A DNA stretch of 34,676 bases, taken from Phycisphaerae bacterium. GTDB lineage: Bacteria > Planctomycetota > Phycisphaerae > Sedimentisphaerales > Anaerohalosphaeraceae. Location of the stretch: positions 1-34,676 of the forward strand of contig JAOUFG010000016.1 in NCBI GenBank assembly GCA_029858345.1. The letters are read 5' to 3'. The notes below the pieces were generated by a model that was given only the letters and a program-made list of their open reading frames with translations, made no database searches and was not told the origin of the DNA. This document shows, piece by piece, positions 27,439-29,855 of this stretch. Made by a program: the position numbers and the translations under genes. Position 1 is the first letter of the stretch, and each line of letters begins with the position of its first letter.

Positions 27439-27642
27439 GCCGTTTTTTTTACCACGGAAGCCACCGAAATACACGTAAAATATTATCTGAGGGCCATAGC
27501 CAAAAAAATTCAAGAATTCGCAACAAATTTATGCGTCGGACCCATGCCCCGCACCAAAAACAACATTCCTATCGGACGCACTTCACATGGCTGACGGAGT
27601 CATTGAAAAACATGGGTGAATCGAGTATAATATGCTCAGATA

Positions 27643-27739
27643 TACCCTTAAGGGTAGTAAATTCCCGCGAGTAAATTCGTAACTTATCCCGATGTATCGG
27701 GACTACTCTACATAGCCGCGTAGAAACGGGAATTTTCAA
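27643..27739. repeat. Dispersed ~90-nt structured repeat, copy inverted relative to 2509-2595
   Basis: TACCCTTAAGGGTAGTAAATTCCCGCGAGTAAATTCGTAACTT...CTACATAGCCGCGTAGAAACGGGAATTTTCAA matches the reverse complement of 2509-2595. Confidence 0.8.
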
Positions 27740-27770
27740 TCGTGATTGGTATACATGTTTTACGGGGGGT

Positions 27771-28213: not shown

Positions 28214-28334
28214 GGCCGTCTCCTTAATGGACTCATTGATCATACAGCACTTGGTGAAGCTACCTATCATTATACCATTTTTGGGATGCTTAAATTCACA
28301 AAAACAAAAAAAAGTCGGCAGATGGCTTAAAATT

Positions 28335-28521
28335 GCACTGAAAGTGCATTGTAATTTAGCCCAGGGCAACGCCCTGGGTTGGTAAATCACACCAATAAAT
28401 TTCGCCCTGAAAGGGCAGGATAACAAGAGTTTTTATATCGCCCTTTCAGGGCGTATTCAGAAAGGGGGGCATCGGTACCCAGCCCGTTGGGCTGGGCTAT
28501 AATACACAGGCCTTTCAGGCC
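28335..28521. repeat. Head-to-head pair of 82-nt structured repeats (A-B-A / A'-B'-A' hairpins)
   Basis: 28335-28416 and 28440-28521 (rc) align without gaps at hairpins and spacers (11 nt and 25 nt). Confidence 0.85.
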
Positions 28522-28622
28522 ATTTATGGAATTTCCCTCTTTTTATCCGCGTGGGCTTCCGTCTTCGCTCTTCGAGCTGCGCCGGACAGGCCGCTCCACC
28601 CTACATGACTACATGACTGATT

Positions 28623-29603
28623 TCAAGACTGGGACCTTTTGCGAAATGTTGGATCAGAATCTAGTCCACCAATGAAATAAAAGCTGTGATGATAAGAATT
28701 TGAAACGTCTTCAATAAAAGACAAGGTGCCATAAAGGGAATTTCCATAATTATATTCTTCTGTGTTTACTTTGATAACGTTATCGCCAAAAATTTCACAT
28801 GCCTCGGCCTTATCAATTACAAAACCGTGATCTTTGTATGTGTAAACCAGCCTATTAGCGATTTTACTTGGGGAGTACTTGAGGTTTTGACTATGAGTAT
28901 CAAGCAGTCTTTCAGCATATTGCAAAGCTGATTCGGCTGATCTTTCATAGCAACCTAAATCAATCGGCTTAAGAGATAGATTCAGATAACGAGCGAACAT
29001 TTCAGATGTTTCAGGTTTTTCTTCGACGAGTTCGGCGATGTGCTTTACAGCATTTTTTAGCCCGAGAACGGGCATCCCATTAAGTTGTGGATCAATCGGT
29101 CCAAGCTCACTTAGTGAACCCATATGGATTTCATTTGCTGCGCAGCAAAGAAGAGTAGCGGCAGATTTGGCTCGACGAGGGACAACAACAGAAAAATCAC
29201 CGTCAGAGTATTCTCGGCAAAGCTTACCTATAAGATAAGCGGGGCCTACTGATCCACCATCTGAAAACAACACTAAGAGTATGGGTTTCTTTTTTTCAAA
29301 GTTTGCGACTGCACGGTATATTTTATCTATGTCTGACCTAACCATGGTAGTACCGTCGTGTAACACGATAATGTTGTATTTTTTCGTTAAAGAAGAATGC
29401 TCTTGAGACAAGTATTCCTTAAGGATATTGTCACGGTGTTTCTCCTGTTTCTCAGTTGCGTCTTCTTTAAATGAATCAAGTAAAGCAAAAAATACATCTC
29501 TAAAGTCTAATTGTTGTTTCTCTGTACCAGTATCCTTGCTAGTGGAAGTAGTGGTTTTTGCTTTTCCAGATTTAGATTTTGATGTTTTTTTCTTTGTTGC
29601 CAT
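28623..29603 (-). CDS. SDH-family Clp-fold serine proteinase-like protein
   Basis: LLVLFSDGGSVGPAYLIGKL, VVPRRAKSAATLLCCAANEIHMGSLSELGPIDPQ. GAGGA Shine-Dalgarno upstream. Confidence 0.8.
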   Translation of the reverse strand: MATKKKTSKSKSGKAKTTTSTSKDTGTEKQQLDFRDVFFALLDSFKEDATEKQEKHRDNILKEYLSQEHSSLTKKYNIIVLHDGTTMVRSDIDKIYRAVANFEKKKPILLVLFSDGGSVGPAYLIGKLCREYSDGDFSVVVPRRAKSAATLLCCAANEIHMGSLSELGPIDPQLNGMPVLGLKNAVKHIAELVEEKPETSEMFARYLNLSLKPIDLGCYERSAESALQYAERLLDTHSQNLKYSPSKIANRLVYTYKDHGFVIDKAEACEIFGDNVIKVNTEEYNYGNSLYGTLSFIEDVSNSYHHSFYFIGGLDSDPTFRKRSQS

Positions 29604-29767: not shown

Positions 29768-29801
29768 TTTTCTCAAGTCTCATGCCTCGGGGCTCAAGTC
29801 T

Positions 29802-29855
29802 GTAAGAGTTCAAGCTTTAGCTTGTTTTGCGACACACTAAAGTGTGAACTCTTAC
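29802..29855. repeat. Cruciform-like element: 11-bp outer stem enclosing two hairpins, overlapping the nrdJ stop codon
   Basis: GTAAGAGTTCA / TGAACTCTTAC outer arms; inner CAAGCTTTAGCTTG and CACACTAAAGTGTG. Confidence 0.8.

Follow-up and report, generated by a model that had tools for sequence, protein, structure and literature searches.

Two three-hairpin units stand head to head, without a tnpA gene between them, at positions 28335–28521 of the window (the whole 34,676-nt stretch of DNA analysed here, which is contig C112, one of the 198 that make up a 3.0-Mb genome). Units of this kind are likely the termini of a small mobile DNA family that occurs in many bacterial phyla, with the window element as a non-autonomous, REP/REPIN-like member served by an HUH transposase of TnpA_Y1 subclass 1.2. 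The units have a defined anatomy and covarying stems; they flank tnpA genes in inverted orientation, with sequence variants specific to individual transposases; units and transposase co-occur among genomes, and related genomes differ in the occupancy of sites; the transposase has an IS608-like predicted fold; and the units overlap an Rfam family, Acido-Lenti-1. The window copy is in all likelihood a transposase-less REPIN/MITE-like derivative, for which cleavage and mobilisation in trans are inferred.

Anatomy of the window element and its copies in the genome

Each unit follows one plan: a small hairpin (h1), an 11-nt spacer ending in TAG, a central hairpin, ca. 25 nt, and a second small hairpin (h3). 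Unit 1 occupies 82 nt of the forward strand (28335–28416), as defined by sequence, folding and genome copies. Its h1, GCACT-GAA-AGTGC, is a GNA triloop hairpin at 28335–28347, supported by sequence and covariation; the TAG foot at the base of the central hairpin (28357–28359) emerged from alignments of copies, and the central hairpin, CCCAGGGC-AAC-GCCCTGGG (28360–28378), and h3, GCCCT-GAA-AGGGC (28404–28416), are read from the sequence. A tail, AGGATAA (hairpin, N4, then TA; 28417–28423, forward strand), follows from an alignment of 34 copies and is a putative cleavage zone, a role that is inferred. Unit 2, defined by the same three kinds of evidence, takes up 82 nt of the reverse strand (28440–28521), with h1, GGCCT-GAA-AGGCC, at 28509–28521, the TAG foot (CTA on the forward strand; sequence and copy alignment) at 28497–28499, the central hairpin, CCCAGCCC-AAC-GGGCTGGG, at 28478–28496, and h3, GCCCT-GAA-AGGGC, at 28440–28452. 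The loops are GAA, AAC and GAA in both units. The inner pairs of the central hairpin are swapped in unit 2, and this swap recurs at other loci in the genome. Folded as single strands, both units did better than any of 200 dinucleotide shuffles (DNA z = −5.7 and −4.0), and their RNA folding was likewise better than that of shuffles. The element lies in an intergenic gap beyond the end of the gene at 28623–29603, from which ca. 100 bp separate it.

A covariance model built from the two window units (R1) detected 40 unit copies in the genome, 38 of them beyond the window pair (E ≤ 2e-6; covariance-model E-values are rough). Pair counts revealed that helix 3 of R1 was one column out of register, and a corrected model is denoted R2. 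A stricter gapped pattern comprising the central hairpin and h3 gave no match, whereas a shorter pattern and the covariance model succeeded. The copies include eight transposase-less head-to-head pairs (C112, C160, C179, C57, C54, C56, C163 and C24), four tnpA elements with units (C47, C90, C130 and C167, the last cut by a contig end), two near-identical tail-to-tail pairs (C175 and C83), one direct tandem (C96) and eleven solo units. This recurrence is the decisive check that the window pair is not a product of chance. Because copies differ from one another by 20–30%, recent movement within this genome is not shown.

When 34 copies from the genome are aligned, almost without gaps, 92.6% of cells are paired and pairing is kept through compensatory changes; the covariation score is 0.231, compared with 0.097 for shuffled alignments and at most 0.090 when partners are slid. 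The TAG foot precedes the central hairpin in all 34 aligned copies. The unit extends ca. 7 nt beyond h3 with the consensus ANNRTAA, in which neither the T five bases past h3 nor the A that follows it ever varies (34/34). No conservation is seen upstream of the base preceding h1, and conservation fades past the tail; these limits on both sides set the ends of the unit.

Re-reading of the sequence bore out the original prediction of an 82-nt head-to-head pair in its coordinates, loops and stems; a further claim, identical spacers, held only in part, the spacers being equal in length and different in sequence. The prediction of a folded nucleic acid with covariation held in the 34 copies from this genome and in 149 units from other phyla described below. 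It was to be refuted by a lack of further copies or by covariation no better than the phylogenetic background, and neither was borne out, given the 38 further copies and scores above both shuffled and slid controls. The proposed sorting into solo and head-to-head copies yields the eleven and eight counted above.

A unit with a GCAC-type h1 is combined with a unit that carries a GGCC-type h1 and the CCCAGCCC stem in the window pair and likewise in C179, C163, C24 and C175, the last of these a tail-to-tail pair; this recurring combination suggests spread of the pair as one element. The window units can be aligned with those at the tnpA elements of C47, C90 and C130. We read the window pair as a MITE/REPIN-type derivative because its ends are common to an autonomous element in the same genome.

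The window also carries two other repeats. A dispersed repeat of ca. 120 bp (27636–27757), with 27-nt imperfect inverted-repeat ends at 27641–27667 and 27727–27753, occurs over 20 times in this genome, with further copies elsewhere in the genus, at roughly 70–91% identity. A 54-bp palindromic repeat at 29801–29855 (GTAAGAGTTCAAGCTTTAGCTTGT...ACACACTAAAGTGTGAACTCTTAC) overlaps the stop of a ribonucleotide reductase gene, has many copies across genomes of the genus and resembles another REP-like family.

Transposases flanked by inverted units, in this genome and across phyla

The genome contains 12 Y1_Tnp genes. Those of C47, C90 and C130 each lie between two inverted units with an almost constant start-to-start distance of 553–554 nt; an autonomous copy is ca. 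634 bp long and reads unit, tnpA, inverted unit; the C167 gene has one unit and then the contig ends. Transposases in C132, C95 and C162 are flanked by sequence variants of their own with the same unit layout, inverted wherever both sides are present. As these units differ in sequence, every transposase seems to be matched with a unit sequence of its own. No unit was found at the loci of the longer Y1 genes (C190, C79, C96 at 20711, and C6), which thereby provide a negative control within the genome.

The unit-flanked proteins have 150 residues and contain the motifs DH[VI]H, WQ and Y---Q--HH. Invariant residues comprise Y115, Q119, H122, H123 and W95-Q96, along with H55 and H57 of the HuH motif, and all protein motifs of TnpA_Y1 subclass 1.2 are met (compared with Table 1 of PMC6006769). 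The NCBIfam IS200/IS605 model NF033573 scored above its cut-off in all four proteins scanned; the REP_Tyr_transpos model reached 22.7 bits, below its cut-off of 80. A search of the PDB by sequence alone gave no match for the transposase. An AlphaFold model (pLDDT 94.9) returned 30 Foldseek matches at E ≤ 1e-3, all of them to IS608, ISDra2, other IS200-type transposases or the REP-bound TnpA_REP 4er8; the matched IS608 and ISDra2 TnpA structures are bound to hairpin DNA. As predicted by the model, the transposase has an IS608-like HUH/Y1 fold.

Scanning 84,980 species genomes for the transposase yielded 80 loci, which represent the best-scoring transposases and not a random sample. They fall in Planctomycetota, Verrucomicrobiota, Bacteroidota, Acidobacteriota, Fibrobacteres, Calditrichota and other phyla; the closest named relative is a Planctomycetota MAG (L091) whose transposase is 77% identical. 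A sequence-blind hairpin finder limited to strict Watson-Crick pairs recovered all three hairpins in only 26% of flanks. Once one G-T pair was tolerated, together with wider spacing and larger loops in the central hairpin, recovery rose to 46% with near-zero background; on also requiring a YAG foot, 38.8% of flanks were positive, compared with 0.2% of shuffles and 0.6% of regions farther away within these loci. With R2, the gene stood between two inverted units at 29 of the 80 loci, and at 51 it had a unit on one side or both; adjacent units had the expected orientation in 80 cases and the opposite one in 11.

Pairing is likewise maintained between phyla: in 149 units, 92.7% of cells are paired, all 20 pairs change on both sides somewhere, and the covariation score is 0.602, compared with 0.184 shuffled and at most 0.107 slid. 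This alignment was fitted to the model and hence leans to structure; the slid controls preserve relatedness. The foot is YAG (A in 149, G in 139 and Y in 133 of 150), and GNA loops on the unit strand occupy h3 in 134 of 150 and h1 in 97 of 150, with the middle base free. The motif A-Y-A lies at an equal distance after h1 and after h3. Genomes of cultured species hold a few to dozens of unit copies, such as the 66 of Granulicella mallensis, and a Tannerellaceae MAG holds 103. Among 148 relatives, R1 units are present in 32, the transposase in 28 and both in 19 (p = 2e-9); this and the RF01687 co-occurrence statistics given below are uncorrected for phylogeny.

Mobility is shown within Bacteroides, where a site is occupied in one genome and empty in its relatives. 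An insert of ca. 1.1 kb in Bacteroides xylanisolvens XB1A (L142) comprises a unit, tnpA and an inverted unit, plus tandem partial units, and two close relatives (G186 and G174, 84–94% identical) have its flanks directly adjoining each other; the junction is exact only to ca. 55 nt. In another genus, one site lacks both transposase and units in G010 and contains the transposase with unit arrays of differing length in G025, G032 and G035. Query matches number 39–78 in the latter three, mostly as dispersed short pieces, and 5–6 in G010, G037 and G038, all of which lack the transposase at that site. A precise empty site for the window copy was not found, the genus being too diverged there. The tnpA element of C90 is present in some relatives and absent from others, but the flanks fail to align and give no precise junction.

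Two side observations concern arrays at these loci. Beside the B. xylanisolvens element, L142:2516–2890 consists of tandem 63-nt partial units (h1, TATAG and the 5' arm of the central stem), resembling a BIME array of half units. The loci from G025, G032 and G035 (L253–L255) carry arrays of a related unit family with CCCCGGGC-GTAA-GCCCGGGG central hairpins, whose copy number varies between species at one site.

Overlap with Acido-Lenti-1 and relation to known systems

Searched with Rfam at its own gathering thresholds, the window gave no match; RF01687 (Acido-Lenti-1) surfaced only at a relaxed threshold. It matches h1 and the central hairpin of unit 1 at 28334–28378 on the reverse strand (34.6 bits, E 1.6e-5; gathering score 37) and those of unit 2 at 28478–28522 on the forward strand (27.7 bits, below the gathering score), in both cases on the strand opposite to the unit. 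The 46 positions of RF01687 are the complement of the unit's h1, spacer and central hairpin. The gathering score is passed by units of the window's own genome in L063, L066, L068 and L072, and by units from other genomes, in seven loci. Over 20 loci there were 15 above-threshold matches, every one of which fell on a unit, on its opposite strand. RF01687 is present in 27 of the 28 relatives with the transposase and in 29 of the 120 without it (p = 5e-13), with median copy numbers of 12 and 0, respectively. Within the window's family, it is present in all 22 genomes with tnpA, compared with seven present and ten absent among those without (p = 3e-5). For the 29 of 56 RF01687-bearing genomes in which no tnpA was detected, incompleteness, loss or divergence are conceivable causes.

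Acido-Lenti-1 was described as a probable RNA, probably not cis-regulatory, of Acidobacteria and Lentisphaerae (Weinberg et al. 2010, PMC2864571), and a 2026 paper, noting that little is known of its function, suggested that it regulates protease genes (PMC13298647). Compared with the unit, the Rfam entry is on the other strand and lacks h3, the tail, the inverted partner and the transposase. It is probably the complement of part of a transposon end, with no dedicated RNA gene, and this appears to be the simpler reading; an additional RNA role is not excluded. This reading would account for an Rfam 'RNA' that has lacked a known function since 2010 and was still cast as a possible regulator in 2026. 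Annotations of Acido-Lenti-1 as a non-coding RNA, or of small ORFs across the repeats, would need revision.

REP, REPIN and BIME sequences and their TnpA_REP (RAYT) enzymes, together termed the 'REPtron' (PMC6006769, PMC8266576, PMC3116915), are among the closest parallels. Like REPs, the units are dispersed, short, palindromic and often in inverted pairs; they meet the canonical REP criterion of a multi-copy, dispersed and often inversely paired sequence with their 40 copies, eight transposase-less pairs, solos and tandems. They also surround a Y1 HUH transposase gene in inverted orientation, bear a conserved foot 5' of a hairpin and have a sequence of their own for each transposase. However, a canonical REP is a single palindrome of 20–50 nt with a GT[AG]G foot, whereas the unit is an 82-nt composite of three hairpins with a TAG or CAG foot; RAYTs (class 2 TnpA_REP) carry Y---NP instead of Y---Q--HH; and here several tnpA copies per genome each lie between units. 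The REP/BIME-like mobile unit of the original prediction held, with a different foot from GT[AG]G, and the RAYT/Y1 transposase with matching ends that it called for was found, in this genome and in many phyla, as a Y1 enzyme that is not a classical RAYT. The prediction named no catalogued family, and the overlap with RF01687 is an addition to it.

In the survey of Quentin et al. (2018, PMC6006769), TnpA_Y1 subclass 1.2 had no REP and generally no IS200-type ends, and came mostly from Cyanobacteria and Bacteroidetes; the automatic REP search of that survey required GT[AG]G-footed hairpins. Proteins of the present family resemble subclass 1.2 in length (148–150 residues) and in their DH[VI]H, WQ and Y---Q--HH motifs. 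Unlike the subclass as surveyed, their genes are flanked by units and also occur in Planctomycetota, Verrucomicrobiota, Acidobacteriota and other phyla. The units would give DNA partners to a subclass that previously had none. A literature search by repeat sequence returned only unrelated papers on human telomerase.

Competing explanations and a proposed mechanism

Could the units be ordinary ends of IS200/IS605 elements, that is, classical insertion sequences with decayed relatives? The protein passes the NCBIfam cut-off for IS200/IS605 and has a predicted fold like that of IS608 TnpA, and the family shares with IS608 and ISDra2 the HUH/Y1 fold, hairpin-bearing ends and an expected lagging-strand mechanism. 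The ends of IS200/IS605 elements are single subterminal hairpins on the same strand (mechanism: PMC8266576). That trait of same-orientation subterminal hairpins is not met here, as each end is a composite three-hairpin unit and the two ends are inverted. Moreover, tnpA copies are far fewer than solo units and transposase-less pairs, which form a REP-like population without the gene, and the motif assigns the protein to subclass 1.2 and not 1.1. We hold this account to be very improbable.

There is also little to recommend the view that the units are true non-coding RNAs with a structure, as Rfam has Acido-Lenti-1, which would act in trans or as elements of mRNAs. In its favour are the RF01687 match to h1 and the central part, RNA folding that is better than for shuffles, and the fact that covariation alone cannot separate RNA from single-stranded DNA. 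Against it stand the fixed inverted positions around a transposase of hairpin-binding HUH fold, a unit copy number that tracks the transposase, and a GNA loop rule that holds on the strand opposite to Rfam's; furthermore, since units occur in inverted pairs, either transcript would contain one unit and one anti-unit. Bidirectional terminators or mRNA-stabilising hairpins, amplified by chance, would suit the intergenic position just past the end of a gene. However, no T-run directly follows the hairpins, the orientation around tnpA is fixed, and the three-part unit with fixed spacing, invariant TAG foot and TA tail is left unexplained; this possibility too is very remote.

Under the favoured reading of the units as transposon ends, the family would move as single-stranded DNA, and each 82-nt unit would be a composite recognition end: a central hairpin with a (T/C)AG foot on its 5' side, bracketed by two GNA-loop hairpins, each then followed by A-Y-A at a fixed distance. 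GNA triloops form very stable DNA mini-hairpins, a stability reportedly described by Yoshizawa et al. (1997). We infer, without experiment, that TnpA would bind the unit hairpins on single-stranded DNA, and that recognition would take place on the lagging-strand template. The TAG/CAG foot may act as a guide, in a role like that of the GTAG foot of REPs, with putative cleavage near A-Y-A, 4–6 nt past the small hairpins. The window copy has its two inverted ends but no tnpA, and would be moved in trans. The units would make up a large REP-like family that spans many phyla, and its mechanism is open to testing in Bacteroidota and Acidobacteriota that are in culture.

A bolder and more tentative reading takes each unit as a complete single-strand excision module, in which the two GNA hairpins would place two cleavage sites (N3-A-Y-A), one before and one after the central hairpin with its guide. 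One chemistry would then move solo units, inverted pairs and copies with tnpA alike. If true, this architecture would be one undescribed for HUH enzymes, spread over many phyla and partly filed as an RNA family.

Individual units also depart from the common layout. In L063:5624–5699, a broken unit ends within the 5' arm of the central hairpin, which may reflect an abortive cleavage or an end point. Units at L080:1981–2099 and L082:1976–2094 contain a different palindrome of ca. 30 nt (TTGTCCCGTCATAGCTTTAGCGACGACGGAAC) inside the loop of the central hairpin, a case of one repeat family inserted into another.
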